IMG/VR virus record: IMGVR_UViG_3300020433_000012
Span: 1 to 46,276 of that record
Strand: one strand, 5' to 3'
DNA: 46,276 bases
Source of the DNA: a virus
Shown here: piece after piece, positions 1,668 through 22,679 of the stretch
Numbering within the stretch: position 1 is the first letter of the stretch
How the letters are laid out: each line of letters opens with the position of its first letter
The notes under the pieces: generated by a model
The model's database searches: none
Told to the model about the DNA's origin: nothing
Seen by the model: the letters and a program-made list of their open reading frames with translations, nothing else
Translations under genes and position numbers: made by a program

Positions 1668-4600
1668 ATGGCAATTGCATATTATTATCCAGAAGGACCG
1701 TTAGGACCAGTATGTGACTATCAAGTTGATGATGATGGTGATCTGGATGCAAGACGTAGAAGAATTCAAGACGCTATAGGTGACGGAAGAGAGGTAACTT
1801 ATGGTCCTGTAGATTATGGTGACCTAGAACGTGTAATGGATGGTGGTATACCTGCACTCGTCAGTAGAAGATGTAAAGTTAGAACTCTTGCTGATGGAAC
1901 TAAAGAGTTCTATGATTGTCAAGATGATTTTTTAACACCAATTGGTGCTCCAGTTGGTTATCCTTTAGTAGAACCTCAATATGATTGGTTATCTAATTCA
2001 GTATCTCCTTGGGGATTAGATGATGATTTTGAACCTCTCGAAATGAGTCCTTACGCTTGTTCTCCTTTTGATCCAGACATTAATATAATTCCTGTGAAGA
2101 TGTATAGATCTGATGGGACTTTTGTAGAGAAAATTTTAACAGAAAAATCTTCACCACCAACTTTTCCTGTAAGAAGTGGTAACTCAACATTTGCTAGTGG
2201 AAGTGTCAATGCAAATTTTGTAGAAGTCAATTCAGATAATCTTTGGTATACTAATCCAGCAACATTGGCATGGCGTATCACTCAAGGTTCTACAGAAATT
2301 GCTACCTCAGTTACCAATAAAGGTACATGGGTACAGGTAGGTGCATCAAATAATCCTGCTAATGGTTGGACACAATTTATGATTGATTATGGTATCTACC
2401 CATCAGTGCCTTTAGATACACAGGAGGATCCTTTAATTGGACAGTGGCAAACACTTACTACTACTGTCAACTTTCCTACATCTGGTACATATTCTATAAG
2501 AATAGAGTCTGATAATGATGGTTATATTAAGATAATAAATTCTGCTGATATTGCTATTCTTGATAGAGAGATATACTACAATAATTCTACTGGTGTAGGA
2601 GAAGAAACTATTTCATTGACATTAGCTGCAGGTACCTATACTGTAGAGACACGCATTAAAAATAGGATTATAGCAGGTGGTGATCTAAAACTTAGAGTAA
2701 TTGGTGATGTTGCTGGTCTTGTTGGACTTACATTTAGATGGAATGATAACCCTAACACTGCTGGAACTGCTCTAAGTTCTCTAGTTATTGATGGTGTTAC
2801 GTTTAATCAAACAGGAAGAAGGGGAGAGACGGATGCAATACTTACTGTTGCTGCTGGTAGTACTGATTATCCAATAACAATTAATCCTGGTACAGGATTT
2901 GGTGGAAAGGAAGTACAGTTTCAAAATGTTGGTTTTTATGATCTTGATGGACAAGATTATAATGCAGAACTATTAATTACTAGAGTTGAACCAGAACCTC
3001 AAGTAAATAATGTAGGTGGATTTTGGTCTGAAGAAGGTAATAAGTATGCAGTTTGGGTTAATCCAGAACAATGTACTCTACCTGATCTACCTCAAGAGGT
3101 AACATACATGATCGATATACCAGCAACCGACACGTATACATTTACTGGTGGTGCTGATGATGAATTTAATGTCTTTTTAAATGATGAAACTTCTCCTGTT
3201 ATTGGTGGTGTTGGTGGGATATTTAATTTTGGAACAAACACCACACCATTCTCAGCAACTAGAACAATACAAGCAGGTAAGTTGAAGATGGTTGTACAGT
3301 GTACAAATGGTAATGCTACCTTTGTTGATGCTGAGGGAAGACCTGATGGTTTAGCATATAGTTGGTCTAGAAATCCTGGTGGGTGGTATGTAAAAATTTG
3401 TAGAGGTACTAGTTGTATTGAACCAACAACAATTGTATGGGTTCCATCTGGTCCTCATAATGCTTGGGGAGATTTTATGGACACATACGCTGTATATCCA
3501 TCCAATAATCTTGTTCTAAAAGGAAATCCTCAAACAACATCTTACAATGTTAATATTCCTTTTCCAGGTAATTACACATTAGAATATTCTGTAGATGACA
3601 TAGGAGTTATTTCATTAGATGGAACTCAGATTGTAAGTTTTGCTGCTAATTTTCCTACCTCAAACACATATACTATTAACAATCTTACTGCTGGTCCTCA
3701 CGTAATAGAAGTTACTGTTACTAACCAAGCAGCAAGTGCGGATAGTGATGATTGGACTACAAATCCTGCAGGTATCGCATGGACTTTAACTCCTGAAACA
3801 AGTGCATCTAATGTAGCAGTTAAGTTTTTAAGTAATGGTGATCTGTTAGCAACAGGAGAAGGATTCGCATCAGTTCCATTGACTTTCACATCTAATGCTG
3901 CTACTGGTGCTCGTGCTCTTTGGTCAATCTTCGGAAGATCAATAGATTCAGGATATCAAATAGCATCTTCTACTAAAATTATGTGGGATGATGATATTTC
4001 TGGTGGGTTTGATGAAAATGCTAGTCTTACTATAGTAAGTATTAATCAAATAGGTGGTTCAAATATAGGTGTTACGTTTAGTTCTGATGGAAGTGGTATC
4101 GATATAACTGGTGCAGGATCTGCTGATGTTGTATTTCATTTTGCATGGAATGATAATCCAAATACTTCTGGACTTGCAGTTGGTAACTTAGAACTGTTAG
4201 GCACAACATTTACTCAAAGTTCTCAAACAGGTAATCAAACTGAAACTATTAGAGTTAGTGGTAGTACATCTCAGGTTTCTTATTACATTAGTGGGCAATC
4301 ATTTGTTCAAACTGCAAATGCTGCTACCGTTACTAAAACAATTAGCGTTAATGGTGGTGGAGAACAGGGTAGAGTATACGCAAGTAGTTCTTTCTATACC
4401 CAAAATTTACGAACTGAAAATAATGGACAGAGACTTTGTTTAAATGACAACGGTAGTAGTAATACTTACATGGCATTTATCAGAGGTTGTATAATTAATC
4501 GTGCAAATGGATTTACTGAAAGTAATGTTGATTTGGGATACGAGGATACCACAGATACTTCATTATATTTCTACCCTATTGTCAGATCAATCGCTGAGGA

Positions 4601-6235: not shown

Positions 6236-6475
6236 ATGGATCCAATCATTGTTGCACTGGTTGTCTTAGTTGTTCTGGGAGCATTTTTCCTTGGTATAAC
6301 TGTTTCTTGGTTGGCGAAAGGATATGTAGAAGACTACATAGAAAATGCAGCATATTCCAAATCAGTTGTACATCCTGAAATGTTTGATGAAGATGGTAAC
6401 ATGTTACATGATGAACTCATCTATATCAGACCAACAAATATCTGGAATTTCGACGATGCTGATGAGGAAGACTAA
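6236..6475 (+). CDS. Small single-pass membrane protein (79 aa)
   Basis: Residues 4-27 (IIVALVVLVVLGAFFLGITV and onward) form one strong membrane helix. The rest is an acidic cytoplasmic or periplasmic tail ending DDADEED. The start is preceded by CGGAG and by a CTAAATA late box. No family recognised. Such one-helix proteins with acidic tails are frequent in cyanophages; function unknown. Confidence 0.7.
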   Translation: MDPIIVALVVLVVLGAFFLGITVSWLAKGYVEDYIENAAYSKSVVHPEMFDEDGNMLHDELIYIRPTNIWNFDDADEED

Positions 6476-6491
6476 TCACAGGAATTAAATT

Positions 6492-6956
6492 ATGCCACGT
6501 AACATGGAAAATAGTAACCCTAGGTTGCTACTAAGTGAGATTTTGAGAAAGGTCTCTAATGCAAAAACAAAGAAGGAGAAAGTAGATCTTCTTCGTAAAC
6601 ATAATAGCAATGCTCTCAGACAGGTGTTAATCATCAATTTTGATGAGAGTATTGAATCAGTGATGCCAGAAGGAGATGTACCTTACACTCCTAACGATGC
6701 ACCTATAGGAACAGATCATACACGATTGGAACAAGAGTATCGTGGTCTTTACAGATTCTTCAAGGGTGGAGATCCCAGACTTAAAGGGTTGAAGAGAGAA
6801 ACTATGTTTGTTCAACTTTTAGAGGGACTTTATCAGGATGAAGCAGAACTTATAGTTCTTGTTAAAGATGGTGGATTGAATAAAAAGTATAAGCGTATCA
6901 CTAAAGCAGTAGTATCTGAAGCATTTCCACAGATTGAGTGGGGAGGAAGGAGTTGA
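6492..6956 (+). CDS. Conserved T4-like phage protein of unknown function (154 aa)
   Basis: A soluble, mainly helical protein: an N-terminal RLLLSEILRKVSNAKTKKEK helix, then a region LEQEYRGLYRFFKGGDPRLK, and a C-terminal KDGGLNKKYKRITKAVV segment. The pattern matches a protein family widespread in T4-like phages (possibly DUF6433; from memory). It begins 16 nt after the previous stop with a CAGGAA ribosome site, and its stop TGA overlaps a TTG that is probably the next start. No catalytic motif is evident. Confidence 0.75.
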   Translation: MPRNMENSNPRLLLSEILRKVSNAKTKKEKVDLLRKHNSNALRQVLIINFDESIESVMPEGDVPYTPNDAPIGTDHTRLEQEYRGLYRFFKGGDPRLKGLKRETMFVQLLEGLYQDEAELIVLVKDGGLNKKYKRITKAVVSEAFPQIEWGGRS

Positions 6957-12517: not shown

Positions 12518-13534
12518 TTAGTATCCTCCGCCGTATCCTCCTCCATATCCACCGCCTGATGGAGGACTACTTGGAGGTGACATTGGTGGAGAACTCGGTG
12601 GACTACTTGGTGGACTACTTGGTGGACTGGATGGTGGACTACTTGGTGGACTGGATGGTGGACTGTATGATGGACTACTGCTAGGACTGCTTGTATTTTG
12701 TTCTGATGCCTGAGTTCCTCCCATAGGAGTTGTAGAGGTGGTTGTTGAACTAACTCCAGCAGTTAGTTGTAAAGTATTTAAATCTGCTACATTTCCAGGT
12801 CCATCGTCAAATGTAATTTCACCAGATCCGCTTACTGCAGAACGAACTGCACTAGCAAAACTCACGGATCCTGCGTTATTTAAGAATCTAGAAGCAAGAT
12901 TCAATTCTGTTTTCTTATTATTTGCTTCATCAAGTTCTACATGAGGTTCATATGCAACTAAGTCTTCAAACTCTTCAATCATGATATCTAACATATGACC
13001 AACTGGAAGTAAAATTTGTCTTTTTACTTCATTTTTAAAATATTCATGTTCATAGTTAGTCACTTGATATATTGATTCTTCTGCAGTTTTTACATCACCA
13101 TTTGGTAGTACGGTTCTCCAATCTGAAGTTACCTCAACACCTTCTTTAATAACTGGTGTACCATCATCAAGTATAATTTCATTAGTTTCCCAATGATGAA
13201 TATTATCTCTTTTTTCGGAACCATAAACTTCGTCTACATAATCCTCTAACTGGTCAGAACTTTTTGGCCATTCTTCATATACGTCAGTAATATCATTAAT
13301 TAAAAGGATTGCCCAATCTAACTTGGGATCATCAAAAAACTTAGATGCCAAGGAATCGGGAGTTTCACCATTTTCAATTGAATATGTCTCAAAAAGAGTT
13401 GTGTATTCATCTAAATCAGGTCTTGCCCTAATTTTTCTAAAAATATTTTTAACTAGTCGGTATTTAAATGCCTCATCATCTCTGACACCCTCACCAACAA
13501 ATACATTAGGAAAGTAAGAAAAATATCCTGCCAT
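12518..13534 (-). CDS. 53: Baseplate wedge protein gp53 with Ser/Pro and GGGY tail
   Basis: 338 residues against about 196 in T4. The N-terminal 200 residues are gp53-like: MAGYFSYFPNVFVGEGVRDD, then DLDEYTTLFETYSIENGETP (a LysM-like segment) and WAILLINDITDVYEEWP. From about residue 250 the protein becomes Ser/Thr-rich, then a run of SPPSSPP units, and ends in three GGGY repeats. In T4, gp53 joins neighbouring baseplate wedges. The added tail is probably exposed. The gene is one base downstream of gp48, transcribed leftwards. Confidence 0.88.
   Translation of the reverse strand: MAGYFSYFPNVFVGEGVRDDEAFKYRLVKNIFRKIRARPDLDEYTTLFETYSIENGETPDSLASKFFDDPKLDWAILLINDITDVYEEWPKSSDQLEDYVDEVYGSEKRDNIHHWETNEIILDDGTPVIKEGVEVTSDWRTVLPNGDVKTAEESIYQVTNYEHEYFKNEVKRQILLPVGHMLDIMIEEFEDLVAYEPHVELDEANNKKTELNLASRFLNNAGSVSFASAVRSAVSGSGEITFDDGPGNVADLNTLQLTAGVSSTTTSTTPMGGTQASEQNTSSPSSSPSYSPPSSPPSSPPSSPPSSPPSSPPSSPPMSPPSSPPSGGGYGGGYGGGY
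12541..12700 (-). repeat. Short tandem repeats coding the Ser/Pro and Gly/Tyr tail of gp53
   Basis: On the plus strand the words GGTGGACTACTT and GGTGGACTGGAT alternate many times, coding SPPSSPP units on the minus strand; CCTCCGCCGTAT-type units code the GGGY end. Repeats of this size are prone to copy-number change by slippage. Confidence 0.75.
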
Positions 13535-15924: not shown

Positions 15925-16635
15925 ATGGCATTACCTAAGATTAGTGTACCTAAGTACAAATTGAAACTACCCTCAGATGGTAGAACTGTGAACTTTAGAC
16001 CATTTCTTGTAAAGGAGGAAAAAATCCTTCTCTTAGCTACTGAGAGTGGTGAACAATCTACTATTGTTTCAGCAATCAAAGATATTATCAAAGATTGCAC
16101 AGACATAACCGATGTAGAAAAACTCGCTACTTTTGATATTGAATTCGTTTTCTTACAGATTCGTACAAAATCTGTTGGTGAAAGTGTAGATGTCAATATC
16201 GTTTGTCCTGATGATAATGAAACTAATGTAACAGTTTCTATTCCTTTAGACGAAATTAAAGTCAAGAAGACTAGAGGTCACAAAAAAGATCTTAAAATTT
16301 CTGAGGAAGTTGCTATTACAATGGGATACCCCACTATTGAAACATTCGTTGCTATGAATTTTAGTGATGAGGGTGCTCAGGTTGATCAAGTTTTTGATAT
16401 GGCAGCTAGTTGTGTAGAATCAATTAGTGATGCTAATCAAGTTTATGATTGTTCTAGTGTTCCTAAAAAAGAACTAATAGAATTTTTTGATCAATTGAAT
16501 AGTAAGCAATTTATGATGATACAGGACTTTTTTGAAAAAATGCCTAAATTAACTCATACTGTTAAGGTTACTAACCCTAATACTGGAGTTGAAAGTGATG
16601 TTGTATTGGAGGGTTTAGCGAGTTTTTTCGAATAG
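15925..16635 (+). CDS. 26: Baseplate hub assembly protein gp26
   Basis: 236 residues (T4 gp26 is 208). The N-terminus MALPKISVPKYKLKLPSDGR then TVNFRPFLVKEEKILLLATE is the gp26 signature, followed by KDIIKDCTDI and FDIEFVFLQIRTKSVGE. It acts in hub assembly. The last codons are AGT TTT TTC GAA TAG; the heptamer T TTT TTC is a classic -1 slippery site, and the -1 frame continues for 64 codons, giving a predicted 299-residue fusion. Confidence 0.92.
   Translation: MALPKISVPKYKLKLPSDGRTVNFRPFLVKEEKILLLATESGEQSTIVSAIKDIIKDCTDITDVEKLATFDIEFVFLQIRTKSVGESVDVNIVCPDDNETNVTVSIPLDEIKVKKTRGHKKDLKISEEVAITMGYPTIETFVAMNFSDEGAQVDQVFDMAASCVESISDANQVYDCSSVPKKELIEFFDQLNSKQFMMIQDFFEKMPKLTHTVKVTNPNTGVESDVVLEGLASFFE
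16623..16629 (+). promoter_or_regulatory. Candidate programmed -1 frameshift site (T TTT TTC)
   Basis: The heptamer is in the zero frame of gp26, six codon bases before its TAG at 16633. Slipping back one base joins ...GLASFF to RIALLHTNLQTYY, a protein-like sequence with no start codon of its own until 16683. Confidence 0.65.
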
Positions 16636-16823
16636 CTCTTCTTCACACCAATCTACAGACTTATTATGAAGGTAATTTTGCCATGATGCATCATCATAAA
16701 TGGGATATCGCTCATATTGATAATTTGATGCCATGGGAAAAGGAGATTTATGTGAATATGTTAGTAAATTTCCTCAAAGAGGAGCAACGTAGAATGAAGG
16801 AGCAACAAGCAGCTGGTGGCTAA
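16629..16823 (+). CDS. gp51-position reading frame, probably the -1 frameshift extension of gp26
   Basis: The frame is open from 16599. Read from the slip point it gives RIALLHTNLQTYYEGNFAMM, then HHHKWDIAHIDNLMPWEKEI and YVNMLVNFLKEEQRRMKEQQ, a 64-residue helical extension. The first ATG in frame is 16683, with AAGG upstream, which would yield only 46 residues. The stretch before that ATG looks equally coding, so expression as a gp26 fusion is favoured; tail assembly chaperones of other phages use this trick just upstream of the tape measure gene, and here a tape-measure-like gene follows at 16816. In T4-like maps this is the place of gp51. Independent translation from 16683 remains possible. 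Confidence 0.65.
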   Translation, partial: RIALLHTNLQTYYEGNFAMMHHHKWDIAHIDNLMPWEKEIYVNMLVNFLKEEQRRMKEQQAAGG

Positions 16824-19800
16824 ATTACAAACCTATAAATTTGTCAATCCTGGAGTTTCAAATGTGAAATCTCCAATAGCTGCTGCTGCAAGAAAACAAA
16901 CACTAGCGTTGAATAGACTAGGGAGTACAATATCTGGAATAGGAAGTGTTGTTAGTGATATAGAGAAAATTTCAATTGCTCAAATTAAAAATGAAAAATT
17001 AAGAGAAAGAGCAGAACGTCGCAAAGAGAGAAGAGAGGCAGATGAAGCGGCAGAAGAGGCAATAGAAAACAAAAAGGCAACGAGAAAAACAAAACCCAAA
17101 ATATCCAAAACATCATTAAAAATTGTCAAAGGTAGTCTAAGTTGGATAGAGAAATTCTTAGCACCAATTGGAAAATTTTTTGGATATCTGGCTAAGATTG
17201 CTATTTCAACAGGTGTACTTGATTGGGTTTCAAATCCAGACAATATTAATAAGTTAACAGAGTTTTTAGAGAAGACACACTTTGTTTTTAAAAAACTATT
17301 TGGTTGGGCAGCAGGATTCACTAACAATATTCTAGACGGATTTTCTGCTCTAACAGATCCTAATAGTACCTTTATACAAAGGTTAGGTGGTGTTGGTAAA
17401 ATGATGACAGGTATCATTGGGTTGAAATACCTGATGAATCCTTTTAGTCTCATAACGGATATTTTAGGATTAATCGATTTACTTACTGGTTATGATCCGT
17501 TAAAGTCTAAGAAACTTAAAGGTAAGCAGACAAATAAACCAACTAAAAAGAACCCATCTGGTGCTAATCCAGATGTAGACGGACCTAGGGGTAGACCTAG
17601 AGTAAAAACTGTTACTGATCGGTTTGGTAACGCAGCAGGAAAACAATATAGGAAGATTCTTGCAGAATATGGTGATGATGCTGCTAGAGCATACTTGAAC
17701 GCATTGGAGTTGAATGGTGGAAACCCCACAAAAGCACTTCAAAGTTGGAAGAGACTTAAATTAAAGAAGGTAGAGTATAAACCAACAAGAATACAGAAAG
17801 TTGGGGATTTCTTTGGAGGTCTCTTTGATAAAGGTGTAAAATCTTTAACAAAAGGTTTACCTTCTTGGGCGAAAAAACAATACAGTAATTTAGATTCTTT
17901 CAGACAGAAACAATGGCAAAAAATTGTTTCAATAGGTGAGGGAATTAAAAATACTGGTATAACATGGGCAAGTAAAGCAAAAAATAAATTTAACAGAGGA
18001 ATAGAAGGTCTTAAATCTGGCACTCGAAAGTTGTTTACTGATAGAGTATTAACTCCTCTCAGACCAATTATTGAACCTATAGGTAGGCAAGCTAGTAAGA
18101 TTGGTTCATCAATGATTAATCAGTTGATGAAAATTCCTGGTATGGATAAGGCAGTAGAAGTTCTTAATAAGAAAGGAATTTCTAGTTTTAACGCTATTGC
18201 ATCAGCAGGTAAAAAACTAGGAGCGAGGGCATCAGCAATTCTTCCTGTTGTTGGTGGTCTTGTAAACCTTGCCTTTGCTTACCAACGTTTTTCAGCTGGT
18301 GATTCTATTGGTGGATTGATTGAGGGTACTGCTGGTATTTTAGATATACTTGGTCTTTTTACTGGTGGTGGTACTAGTGCTTTGTCTATGCTTATGGACG
18401 GATATATGTTCGTTCGTGATTTTGTTCCTCAGTTGCAACAAAATGAGGAAAGAATAATTGATGCTGTAGGTGCAAGAGGATTGAAAGATGGTATTGATCG
18501 AATACTATCTAAGTTGCCTGGTATTGGTCAACTTGTTAGCACACTCGTAGGTGGTGGAACCGACGAAGAGAAAACGAAGGTTAAGACAGTAAAAACAGAA
18601 TCAATAAAAAGTGATTTAACAAGTATGACTGTTGATGGGGGTACTGAGAAAAATCAATGGTGGGACTTTCTTGACGTATTTCCAAACAAAAGTAAACCTA
18701 AAGATGAACCTAAAGATGAGCAAACAGAGGGAACTAAGAAAAATCAATGGTGGGACTTTCTTGACATATTTCCAAACAAAGGTGAACCTAAATCAGAGGA
18801 AAAGAAAAAGAAAAATTTCTGGTCTGGTCTTTTCTCTAAGGGAGAACCTAAAAAGTCAGAACCTGAAAAGAAGAAGAAAAAGGGTTTATTTGGATTAGGA
18901 TTTTTAGGTCTTGAAGATGGCGGTAAATTACCTGAGTTCTTCATTGGTGGTTTATTTAAAGGTATTGGTAAAGCAGTTAGTGGTGTAGTTAAAGGTGTAG
19001 GTAAAGTAGTTGGTGGTGTTGTTAATACTGTTGGTAAGATAGCAAGCAATCCTATAGTGGGTACTGCATTATCATTCATTCCTGGTATGCAAATACCAAT
19101 GGCAGTGATTAATGCTGGTACTGCTTTATCACAAGGTAATGTTATGGGTGCTCTTTCTGCTGGATTAGGTGGATTGGGTGCCTTTGCTAATATCAATACC
19201 GTTAATGCTATTAGTCAACCTCAATGGTTGCAAAACCTAAGATTTAGTGGTTTTGGTCAGGGTGTTGCAAATATGTACCACAGTGGTCTCAATGCATTTA
19301 ATAATTTGAGTGCTGGATTTAATAATTTTATGAATTCCAAAGTAGGTAGTATAGCATCTGATGTCCTAAGTGGTAATTACTTGGGTGCTTTAAACACTCT
19401 TAATCCTAAGATTGGAGGCATTGCTCAGAATATTATGAGTGGTAATTATGGAGGTGCTCTAAGTGCTTTCAACCCCGAACTTGGTGCAGCAGTTAGTAAG
19501 GGAATAGCATTGGTAGACTCATTTAGGCAAGATCCTATGGGTTTACTTGCTGGTGTTGCAGAAGCAAATGGTATGGGTGGAATTCTTAAAGCAGTTACTG
19601 GTTTGTTTGGCGGTGGTGATAAGGTCACTGCTGTAACGCAAATAGCAGCAGAAATGGGTGTCGATCCTAAACTTTTGGGTGTAGTAGATTCCGTAAATAA
19701 GAGAGCAATGAGAGAGGGAGGTATTTCTGCTGAATTTGCTATAGAACAAGCTATGGAGTTTATTCCTATTCCCATTATTATTGAGAAGATCGTTCCAATA

Positions 19801-19884
19801 CCTCAGGCAGTAGGGATAAATATTGGTGGTGGTAACCAAATAGTAATAACTGCACCTAATTCGTTGCTTGACAGAATGAGATAA
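16816..19884 (+). CDS. Tape-measure-like tail/hub protein 1 (1022 aa)
   Basis: Starts at GTG 16816, overlapping the previous frame by 8 nt with AAGGAG upstream. A basic coiled coil (residues about 50-90) precedes hydrophobic segments (WIEKFLAPIGKFFGYLAKIA, GGLVNLAFAYQRFS, TALSFIPGMQIPMAVINAG) and long Gly/Ala-rich helical stretches, as in tape measure proteins. Residues 110-230 (VLDWVSNPDNINKLTEFLEK, FIQRLGGVGKMMTGI, NPFSLITDILGLIDLL) are paralogous to the next gene. KNQWWDFLD-FPNK occurs twice with a 90-nt period, and a third diverged copy follows. T4 gp29 is the nearest functional analogue (inferred). Confidence 0.75.
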   Translation: MAKLQTYKFVNPGVSNVKSPIAAAARKQTLALNRLGSTISGIGSVVSDIEKISIAQIKNEKLRERAERRKERREADEAAEEAIENKKATRKTKPKISKTSLKIVKGSLSWIEKFLAPIGKFFGYLAKIAISTGVLDWVSNPDNINKLTEFLEKTHFVFKKLFGWAAGFTNNILDGFSALTDPNSTFIQRLGGVGKMMTGIIGLKYLMNPFSLITDILGLIDLLTGYDPLKSKKLKGKQTNKPTKKNPSGANPDVDGPRGRPRVKTVTDRFGNAAGKQYRKILAEYGDDAARAYLNALELNGGNPTKALQSWKRLKLKKVEYKPTRIQKVGDFFGGLFDKGVKSLTKGLPSWAKKQYSNLDSFRQKQWQKIVSIGEGIKNTGITWASKAKNKFNRGIEGLKSGTRKLFTDRVLTPLRPIIEPIGRQASKIGSSMINQLMKIPGMDKAVEVLNKKGISSFNAIASAGKKLGARASAILPVVGGLVNLAFAYQRFSAGDSIGGLIEGTAGILDILGLFTGGGTSALSMLMDGYMFVRDFVPQLQQNEERIIDAVGARGLKDGIDRILSKLPGIGQLVSTLVGGGTDEEKTKVKTVKTESIKSDLTSMTVDGGTEKNQWWDFLDVFPNKSKPKDEPKDEQTEGTKKNQWWDFLDIFPNKGEPKSEEKKKKNFWSGLFSKGEPKKSEPEKKKKKGLFGLGFLGLEDGGKLPEFFIGGLFKGIGKAVSGVVKGVGKVVGGVVNTVGKIASNPIVGTALSFIPGMQIPMAVINAGTALSQGNVMGALSAGLGGLGAFANINTVNAISQPQWLQNLRFSGFGQGVANMYHSGLNAFNNLSAGFNNFMNSKVGSIASDVLSGNYLGALNTLNPKIGGIAQNIMSGNYGGALSAFNPELGAAVSKGIALVDSFRQDPMGLLAGVAEANGMGGILKAVTGLFGGGDKVTAVTQIAAEMGVDPKLLGVVDSVNKRAMREGGISAEFAIEQAMEFIPIPIIIEKIVPIPQAVGINIGGGNQIVITAPNSLLDRMR
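18643..18860 (+). repeat. 90-nt tandem repeat coding a Trp-rich motif
   Basis: AAATCAATGG starts at 18651 and again at 18741, and the following 35 bases are almost identical, coding KNQWWDFLD(V/I)FPNK. A third diverged unit codes KNFWSGLFSKGEPK. The linkers are Lys/Glu/Pro-rich. Confidence 0.8.
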
Positions 19885-22679
19885 TGGCGACTATAAAAAA
19901 GAGTTCTAAAATTAATTTCTATAAGTTCGTGAAGGTAAAGGAACCTCTACGGTCAAAAAGTCTTCGTGGTGAGATGCCAGAGGTTGCAAAAACTTTGAAT
20001 AATAATACTCTTGCTATCAATAATCTTGGTGCAACTGTAAACTCTATTGGAAAAATTACACAAAGTTTTAAGAGTATTCAACTTAAAAGATTAAAAATTG
20101 CAGAGTCGCAAATAAAAAATTTTGAAGCAGATTTTACAAAAACAAAAAAGAAAAAACCTTTTGCTGGATTTAGTCCTGCTGCCTTAGTAAAAAAACGTAG
20201 TTGGTTAGAAGGTCTGTTCAAGTTGTTGAGTGGACTGATTAAAGCAGCAATTGTTATACCTGCTCTAAAATGGTTATCTGATCCTAAAAATAGAGAGAAA
20301 GTATCCAATATAATCGAAGCCCTTAGTAAATTGGCAACGTTCATCTTTAAAGTTGCATCTTTTGGGGTTGTCAATACCATAGAAGGGCTGTATGATCTGA
20401 TGTCAGATACATCTACTCCTTGGGAAAGAATAGGAGGACTTGTAAAAGGATTAACTGGACTCGGAACTTTATTATTAGGTCTTCGTTGGTTGAGTAATCC
20501 AACTCGTATTATTACAGATTTTGGTAACGTGTTAATTTTTCTACGTAACAACCTAATTAGAGGTAGGAGAGGACTCCTAGGTAGAGCTGGAGCACTTGGA
20601 TTACTAGCAGGTGCTGCTTATGGAGGATATAAACTTTATGAAAACTTAAAGGAAGATGGATCGGGTGGAAAACCAGATCCAAATGATAAAGGTTCTGAAG
20701 TAGTATCTAAAGACATATCCTTTGGTGATAGAGGAAACGCATCGTTTGACACCTCAGGTAAATTCCAAGGCAGCATGAATCTAGGTGATAATGTCACTAT
20801 CAACCTCGGTGGTGATGCTAATTTAGATGAAAAATCTAGTAATTTCCTTAGTGGCATACTCAACCTATTCAAATCTACTGGCGGTCTTGTACCCGCACCC
20901 GCATTCGCACAAGGAGGATGGATTAGTGGACCACAATCAGGATACCCCGTATCATTGGATGGAGGGAGATCCACTTCGTTCATCGGACATGGAACTGAGT
21001 ACGTTGCTAGAAAGAGCGATGGGGGAGCTTTCATCGTTCCTTTTGATACTCCTGGAACAAAAACACAACCAAACTTAACAGATAAAAGATTAGGTGAAGC
21101 TAAAAGTCTAGGATTTGAAATGCCTGGTTTTATGCAAGGAGGAACTTTACCAAAAGGTCTACTTCTTTCACAAAAAGCCGCATTTGATCATGTATATAAT
21201 CTAGCAAAAATGGCAGGAGGAGCAAAATTCCCTGAGATTGTTGCTGCTCAGGCAATGCATGAAACAGGATTTTTAAATCCTAACATAATGAGTGTTTATA
21301 ATGCCACAAACAGAACTAATGCTTTTGGTCAAACTGGCGACAGGGGATTTGGTACTATTCCTAGAAAAGGTTTTGTAGATGGTTGGACAAAATATGATAA
21401 TTTATCCAGTGCAGTAAGTGATAATATTAGACTTTGGCATGATGTAAAAAATCATCCTCAAAACTATAATGCTTTTGGTAATATTTTAGATGGTATTGCT
21501 GCTGTTGCTCCAGCATATTCACCTAATGCAGATCCTGAAAATATCAAAAAAGGATTTACTACTGACAAGTATAGTGAGGGAATGATTAGGGCATTGAAAG
21601 TTGGTGGATTTGATATTAGTAATTTGAAGGATAAACCTAATATTATTTCATCTAATAGTGGTTCTGGACAAAGAAGATCTGGTAACATCTTGACAAACTT
21701 TATGAGTGGTCTTAAAACTGCACTTGGATTTGGTAGTGATACAGATGGCACTAGTAATAAAACAAGCACACAAAATAAATCAAATACTGTCAAACCCGCA
21801 TCACATCCTGAAACAGGTTCTGGATTTACTGTTACAGGAACGAGGGATCAAAATGGTAGACCTTTAGTATTTTCACAACCAGCAGCACAAATGTTTGCTG
21901 CAGCAATGAAAGATTCAGGAATCGATTTAGCATCATTTGTTGCAAGTTCTGGTAGAAGTAGATCTAAAAATACTGAAGTTGGTGGAGATCCTAATTCACA
22001 TCATCTATATGGTGAAGCAGTTGATATGAATGGTGAAGGGTATCAATGGTTAAAAGCGAACGGCAGACGTTTTGGTTGGCAATATGTTTACAATCATAAC
22101 CCTGACAGTGCTCACTTTAAATATGTTGGTGCTAAGGCAGGTACTACACCTATCTTATCAGAACCTGGTGAAAATTATGCTGGTGGTAATAGTCTCTTTG
22201 GACATATAGGTGAGGGTTCTCGTGAAGGTTCTCGTGCATCTAGTAATACAATGGGAAATGATGAAACATCTCCAAGTGTGAGAAAAGGAGGAGGTCTTGG
22301 TGGATTTACCTCTTCAGTAAGTTCCGCCCCTTCTGGAATGAGAGGTATGGGAGATGTAGAATCCTCTGACCGTTCATCAATGTTCGGGCAAGCGAGACAA
22401 CAGAAAAGACTAGAAAAAGTAACAGCAGAGAGAAATAAAGCACGTCGTAAAGTTGCTGAGAGGAGTCAAGACATGATTCAGGAAGTTATGGCAGCAGTTG
22501 CTCAACAAAATGGGGTAAATAGTCAAGCAATCCAAGCAGCACAGACAGCGTTAGCATCAGTGGCAGCACAAACTGGTGGTGGTCAACCACAGATTATTCC
22601 TAGTAGTTCTAGTTCAGCAGGATCTATTGCATCCACTTTACAATCTACCCTTAATCCTTTGAGAGGTTTAGTTAGATGA
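19884..22679 (+). CDS. Tape-measure paralog with glucosaminidase and M15 peptidase domains (931 aa)
   Basis: TAATG overlap with the preceding gene. Residues 1-240 mirror the preceding protein (NNTLAINNLGATVNSIGKI, IPALKWLSDPKNREKVSNII, GGLVKGLTGLGTLLLGLRWL). A Gly-rich linker follows. Residues about 430-570 look like a flagellar/phage glucosaminidase-type domain (IVAAQAMHETGFLNPNIMSV, then FGQTGDRGFGTIPRKGFVDG). Residues about 665-750 contain the M15/VanY zinc peptidase motif SHHLYGEAVD (about 703-712) with the second His in SAHFKYVG (about 743). The C-terminus is a coil. It would cut both glycan and peptide of host peptidoglycan at DNA entry; catalytic assignments are inferred from motifs. 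Confidence 0.8.
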   Translation: MATIKKSSKINFYKFVKVKEPLRSKSLRGEMPEVAKTLNNNTLAINNLGATVNSIGKITQSFKSIQLKRLKIAESQIKNFEADFTKTKKKKPFAGFSPAALVKKRSWLEGLFKLLSGLIKAAIVIPALKWLSDPKNREKVSNIIEALSKLATFIFKVASFGVVNTIEGLYDLMSDTSTPWERIGGLVKGLTGLGTLLLGLRWLSNPTRIITDFGNVLIFLRNNLIRGRRGLLGRAGALGLLAGAAYGGYKLYENLKEDGSGGKPDPNDKGSEVVSKDISFGDRGNASFDTSGKFQGSMNLGDNVTINLGGDANLDEKSSNFLSGILNLFKSTGGLVPAPAFAQGGWISGPQSGYPVSLDGGRSTSFIGHGTEYVARKSDGGAFIVPFDTPGTKTQPNLTDKRLGEAKSLGFEMPGFMQGGTLPKGLLLSQKAAFDHVYNLAKMAGGAKFPEIVAAQAMHETGFLNPNIMSVYNATNRTNAFGQTGDRGFGTIPRKGFVDGWTKYDNLSSAVSDNIRLWHDVKNHPQNYNAFGNILDGIAAVAPAYSPNADPENIKKGFTTDKYSEGMIRALKVGGFDISNLKDKPNIISSNSGSGQRRSGNILTNFMSGLKTALGFGSDTDGTSNKTSTQNKSNTVKPASHPETGSGFTVTGTRDQNGRPLVFSQPAAQMFAAAMKDSGIDLASFVASSGRSRSKNTEVGGDPNSHHLYGEAVDMNGEGYQWLKANGRRFGWQYVYNHNPDSAHFKYVGAKAGTTPILSEPGENYAGGNSLFGHIGEGSREGSRASSNTMGNDETSPSVRKGGGLGGFTSSVSSAPSGMRGMGDVESSDRSSMFGQARQQKRLEKVTAERNKARRKVAERSQDMIQEVMAAVAQQNGVNSQAIQAAQTALASVAAQTGGGQPQIIPSSSSSAGSIASTLQSTLNPLRGLVR

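Follow-up and report, generated by a model that had tools for sequence, protein, structure and literature searches.

The window analysed here is the complete IMG/VR record IMGVR_UViG_3300020433_000012 (46,276 bases), which derives from a virus of marine cyanobacteria. Gene 26 is followed by an overlapping frame in the -1 phase and then by a long gene with a GTG start, giving the following layout.

15925–16635, plus strand: gp26 (short form, TAC-N), 236 aa, with a TAG stop at 16633–16635; matches PF12322 (E 2.1e-75) and phrog_150 (E 1.2e-87).
16608–16613, plus strand: Shine-Dalgarno-like GGAGGG, 9 nt 5' of the heptamer; conserved purine run and probable upstream stimulator.
16623–16629, plus strand: slippery heptamer T TTT TTC in the phase of gp26, 3 nt 5' of the gp26 stop (one codon between).
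16629–16823, plus strand: -1 frame extension (gp51 part), 64 aa followed by a TAA stop at 16821–16823; matches phrog_634 (E 3.8e-30).
15925–16629 joined to 16629–16823, plus strand: predicted long form gp26-gp51, 299 aa.
16629–16682, plus strand: start-less part of the -1 frame, 18 codons, coding; the window has no ATG, GTG or TTG in this frame from the heptamer up to 16683.
16683–16685, plus strand: first ATG of the -1 frame; the product from here would be only 46 aa long.
16816–19884, plus strand: next gene, 1022 aa, initiated at GTG and sharing 8 nt with the end of the -1 frame; matches phrog_790 'endolysin'.

The -1 frame is open in the window from 16599 to its stop at 16821–16823. As stated in the initial annotation, the heptamer lies in the gp26 frame immediately before the gp26 stop, and a shift at this position gives the predicted junction peptide LASFFR, again as described there. 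Among the trypsin peptides predicted from the window, VTNPNTGVESDVVLEGLASFFR, which spans the junction, would be unique to the shifted product and VTNPNTGVESDVVLEGLASFFE unique to gp26. The nearest named relative of the window gp26 is that of Prochlorococcus phage P-SSM7 (93% identity). On the minus strand, the gene at the gp53 position (window 12518–13534) carries at its end a low-complexity repeat, SPPSSPPSSPP, and after it a tail rich in Gly and Tyr.

The presence of the heptamer alone does not constitute evidence, because TTTTTTC is frequent in this AT-rich window (24 occurrences on both strands, compared with 20 expected). In the T TTT TTC phase, none was detected in the other reading frames of the window with at least 250 codons (9,773 codons). 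Conservation was scored over the 169 loci in which the gp26 stop was located, comprising the window, IMG/VR loci and named phages. In the gp26 frame and close to its end, 149 of these loci carry TTTTTTC and 17 carry TTTTTTT (together 166/169); the three loci without a heptamer are L050, a continuous fusion, and those of Pseudomonas phage Cygsa01 and Vibrio phage K469. Codon usage was compared among 120 representative sequences that were less than 95% identical, with individual counts made over 115, 117 or 118 of them. In 99% of 117 representatives, T is the third base of the codon preceding the heptamer; this codon is almost always AGT, TCT, AAT, GCT or GAT, and the encoded amino acid varies (Ser, Asn, Ala, Asp); the T-ending share in other columns of the same amino acids averages 68%, the next best column reaching 91%. 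Within the heptamer, the first Phe codon is TTT in 118/118 representatives and the second is TTC in 111, compared with mixed usage in other Phe columns. The site fits the X XXY YYZ pattern of slippery heptamers in the zero frame and is conserved beyond the amino acids that it encodes. GGGTTTA, an alternative fit to this pattern 12 nt upstream, lacked conservation and was dropped.

Several lines of evidence indicate that the -1 frame is coding. The family phrog_634 ('baseplate hub assembly catalyst') matches residues 2–63 of the 64-residue extension (E 4e-30), including nearly all of the 18 codons that precede the first ATG at 16683. Omega was determined for each frame from 44 independent pairs of sequences. 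It was 0.097 in the gp26 frame just upstream of the heptamer and, in the -1 frame, 0.144 between the slip and codon 19 and 0.065 past codon 19, with zero stops in the 44 pairs; the other two frames before codon 19 gave values of 1.1 and 2.1 and contained 80 and 92 stops, respectively. Purifying selection thus switches frame at the heptamer. In ten pairs without any ATG, GTG or TTG in the stretch before codon 19, omega in the -1 frame was still 0.106, and the frame is coding from the slip onward without a start codon of its own. The -1 frame had initially been described as protein-like well ahead of its first ATG, and an alignment of homologues had been proposed to assess conservation of the heptamer and of positions 16629–16682; the results bear out both expectations.

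The best explanation for these data, and the one put forward in the initial annotation, is a programmed -1 frameshift at U UUU UUC that fuses gp26 to the gp51 frame and would yield a short gp26 and a long gp26-gp51 chaperone. We hold this reading with high confidence. Most ribosomes would terminate at 16633 and release the 236-aa gp26; a minority would slip back by 1 nt at 16623–16629, with tRNA-Phe in both sites, and continue in the -1 frame to produce the 299-aa fusion.

In the existing annotations, gp51 is instead an independent small protein that starts at an ATG after the gp26 stop, through either ordinary or coupled initiation. Consistent with such a protein, a separate gp51 gene is present in the records of P-SSM7, S-SSM5, S-RIM8, S-CAM9 and phiM7, codon 5 of the -1 frame is an ATG in 53/115 representatives (about half), and a TAATG overlap provides an ATG in this frame in Ackermannviridae, Cygsa01 and K469. 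The annotated starts are inconsistent, however, giving products of 31 aa in P-SSM7 (6242–6337), 45 aa in S-RIM8 (6504–6641) and 60 aa in S-SSM5, and no gp51 is annotated in Syn2 and S-CAM1; the P-SSM7 and S-RIM8 genes start around the area of the window's 16683 ATG or further downstream. Moreover, 36/115 representatives, the window included, have no ATG, GTG or TTG before codon 12 or upstream in the -1 frame, and the strong selection on this frame ahead of the first start would be pointless if the stretch were untranslated. The codon-5 ATG is located inside a stem in one subclade (see below), and independent initiation leaves the conserved heptamer unexplained. We therefore regard an independent gp51 as improbable. 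Homologues that lack the slippery site or have a good early start codon had been named at the outset as findings that would speak against frameshifting; both exist in part (early ATGs in about half of the representatives, no site in Ackermannviridae, Cygsa01 and K469), and they do not overturn the conclusion. Most likely, the separate 'gp51' of cyanophages results from faulty annotation. Its reported length of only about 20% of that of other gp51 proteins (PMC3037559) would be expected if the missing part is gp26, joined to it by frameshifting. The result is a corrected gene model for hundreds of T4-like marine phages.

The same fusion would also result from transcriptional slippage of RNA polymerase on the six-T run that forms the core of the site. 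Bacterial cases of such slippage involve runs of nine A or T (PMC5009743), compared with six here, and neither the selected Shine-Dalgarno-like element nor the spaced hairpin described below would be accounted for, which makes this explanation very unlikely. The least probable alternative, with hardly any weight, is that the -1 frame represents a decayed or mis-sequenced and unexpressed part of a once continuous gene. Both T4 gp51 and the contig L050 are indeed continuous; the -1 frame, however, shows zero stops and an omega of about 0.1 in the 44 pairs, and the identical break at the T run recurs in 166/169 loci from isolates as well as metagenomes. In L050 (IMGVR_UViG_3300049043_000112, 2501–3391), the gp26 and gp51 parts lie in one frame (297 aa) because two bases are missing from the T run, due to either a natural fusion or an assembly error.

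Programmed frameshifting at the heptamer is probably assisted by the upstream element. A purine run at positions -15 to -10 relative to the heptamer (GGAGGG in the window) is conserved in 118 representatives. Its mean pairing energy with the anti-Shine-Dalgarno sequence was -6.0 kcal/mol in the representatives, compared with -4.0 kcal/mol (sd 0.14) after synonymous codon shuffling within the gene, and the element was stronger than in 100/100 synonymous shuffles. The Glu codon of the run is GAG in 78% of cases, compared with 13–65% in other Glu columns. Upstream elements of this type are common, although not obligatory, at bacterial frameshift sites; the spacing reported for Shine-Dalgarno-like stimulation of -1 shifts is 9–14 nt (PMC5009743), and that in the window is 9 nt. 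The element probably promotes the slip through base pairing of GGAGGG with 16S rRNA in the elongating ribosome.

Downstream hairpins were found in parts of the family. RNAalifold detected no common structure in the full set, and a hairpin became apparent only after the subclades had been split. A search for simple stems found none shared downstream of the heptamer in the window's own clade. In another cyanophage subclade, to which S-CAM9 belongs, a 10-bp stem begins 5 nt 3' of the heptamer and may act as an added stimulator; the 35-nt stretch containing it has a mean folding energy of -9.9 kcal/mol, compared with -2.9 kcal/mol for stretches within gp26, and the codon-5 ATG sits within the stem. 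Covariation was assessed in 39 sequences chosen by other columns. In these, an Ala codon varies at its third position together with the partner base (GCT/GAG 15, GCG/GCG 9, GCA/GTG 8), the two forming a Watson-Crick pair in 37/39 sequences (permutation p 5e-5, uncorrected for relatedness), with at least seven changes on the tree. A long stem in the window's own fold, formed by the Shine-Dalgarno-like run and a downstream CTCTTC, encloses the slip site and was set aside because a ribosome positioned on that site would exclude it. Four loci (L016, L018, L020 and L022) and their relatives contain another short perfect hairpin, GGTCC-ATAT-GGACC, at +17 to +30 after the heptamer; it is perhaps an independent stimulator in that subclade. 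No description of the Shine-Dalgarno-like element or the subclade hairpin was found in the literature searched, in which Vladimirov et al. 2022 was covered through citing papers only.

If the pair behaves like lambda gpG/gpGT, its natural analogue, the tape measure protein would be coated by the short form, with the extension bringing in tail tube subunits. A sequence search of the PDB identified no relative of gp26 or T4 gp51. For structural comparison, the homologous in-frame fusion L050 was modelled (mean pLDDT 88, 43–86 along the extension). Foldseek returned no significant match to this model in the PDB, and a chaperone match was obtained only upon realignment: the best match was 2ob9, the HK97 tail assembly chaperone (Z 7.9 over 85 residues), followed by 3fgx (Z 7.8), 3klu (Z 7.2) and 5ir0 (Z 4.9), with the remainder at 3.0 or below. 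We take 3fgx and 3klu to be relatives of the HK97 protein. The model thus has a chaperone-like N-terminal fold, confined to residues 1–88 and with Z below 8, values of 7–8 being possible from a common arrangement. Together with the lambda analogy, it suggests that gp26 and gp26-gp51 act as a tail assembly chaperone pair. T4 gp26 and gp51 have been listed as hub assembly chaperones; gp51, described as 'of unknown function', is essential and is not found in the particle (PMC3004832).

The gene that follows had initially been considered tape-measure-like. The searches did not confirm this role: the gene at 16816–19884 has no tape-measure Pfam domain and carries the PHROG label 'endolysin' (phrog_790), and no gene of the window was recognised as that for the tape measure protein. 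The corresponding gene of Ochrobactrum phage OC shows weak tape-measure matches only. The genes at 16816–19884 and 19884–22679 have a common N-terminal region of ~220 residues and both match phrog_1200; the latter also shows a weak M15 peptidase match (PF08291, E 2e-5).

The T4 proteins provide a further line of support. T4 gp51 (249 aa) contains PF12322 at residues 1–201 (E 4e-52) and phrog_634 at residues 147–246 (E 1e-23), whereas T4 gp26 (208 aa) consists of the PF12322-type domain alone. The window's gp26 also matches PF12322 and its predicted long form is homologous to T4 gp51, giving a short and a long form with a common N-terminal domain. T4 gp51 can thus be viewed as a natural continuous version of the fusion, which supports the frameshift reading and agrees with the earlier suggestion that a fusion would unify T4 gp26 and gp51. 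By sequence comparison, the long form of T4 comes from a paralogous gene of its own, with gp26 and gp51 being divergent neighbouring genes.

Both arrangements are found in a range of phages. Two genes, as in T4, are also present in Aeromonas phage 31 and in phages of Acinetobacter, Proteus and Morganella; in RB43 they lie next to each other. The form with TTTTTTC was found in Kyanoviridae, Schizotequatrovirus VH7D, Aeromonas phages phiAS5, Ah1 and ZPAH1, PhiW-14, Stenotrophomonas phage Marzo, Otagovirus Astolliot and a Nitratidesulfovibrio phage, and the form with TTTTTTT in Sinorhizobium phage phiM7 and Ochrobactrum phage OC; distant homologues were searched for with a single divergent query, phiM7. 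In an unrooted tree of the shared domain, which does not by itself establish polarity, the two-gene proteins are placed apart from the frameshift type. VH7D, phiAS5, Ah1 and ZPAH1 are classed with T4 in the Straboviridae, and the frameshift form is therefore probably older than the two-gene form. In Shigella phage Ag3 (Ackermannviridae), Pseudomonas phage Cygsa01 and Vibrio phage K469, which form one group on the tree, the heptamer is lost (ATTTTC or CTTTTTG) and a TAATG overlap places an ATG in the -1 frame; in this Ackermannviridae-type lineage, the mechanism may have changed to coupled initiation. We lean slightly towards a common scenario in which the T4-type pair is widely, and probably was ancestrally, produced by frameshifting and the two T4 genes arose by later duplication, with the stimulators turning over (the Shine-Dalgarno-like element nearly everywhere, the covarying 3' hairpin restricted to a single cyanophage subclade) and the heptamer being replaced by the TAATG overlap in the Ackermannviridae-type lineage.

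Frameshifting of tail assembly chaperones is already known as a kind, and the cyanophage case may already be included in Vladimirov, Gautam and Davidson 2022 (Virology 566:9–15). As cited in PMC10885494 and PMC12846349, that study identified T4-like gp26/gp51-type proteins as tail assembly chaperones; these articles add that frameshifting is replaced in some T4-like phages by a short gene plus a fused one (PMC10885494) and credit Vladimirov et al. with poly-T frameshift signals in the TAC-N genes of T4-like phages (PMC12846349). Very probably, a known phage frameshift trick operates in the window virus and has been hidden by wrong gene annotations.

Lambda gpG/gpGT resembles the predicted case in that a single gene encodes both a short form and, through a -1 shift, a long form with a C-terminal extension; neither lambda product is found in the virion (PMC5009743). 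The present case differs from lambda in its U UUU UUC site, its PF12322 family, its Shine-Dalgarno-like upstream element and a next gene that is not recognised as a tape measure gene. The chaperone of phage Adele and its relatives in the Vandenendeviridae/Andersonviridae (PMC12846349) likewise has a conserved T-rich site where TAC-N ends, together with a separately annotated open -1 frame, but uses a GTTTTT motif and belongs to different phage families. The combination of heptamer, upstream Shine-Dalgarno stimulator and downstream stem (11 bp in dnaX) is shared between E. coli dnaX and the hairpin subclade, whereas the window shares only the upstream one of the two stimulators; dnaX also differs in its A AAA AAG site and in that the shift shortens its product, while it would lengthen the product here. 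T4 makes the same two protein forms with the same two domains, gp26 being the short and gp51 the long one, but does so from two divergent genes rather than from one locus and a slip. T4 was named as an exception to the gpG/gpGT rule (PMC5009743), and it now appears as an exception within its own superfamily. Since some phages make this pair by frameshifting and others from two genes, the required ratio of short to long form becomes testable.
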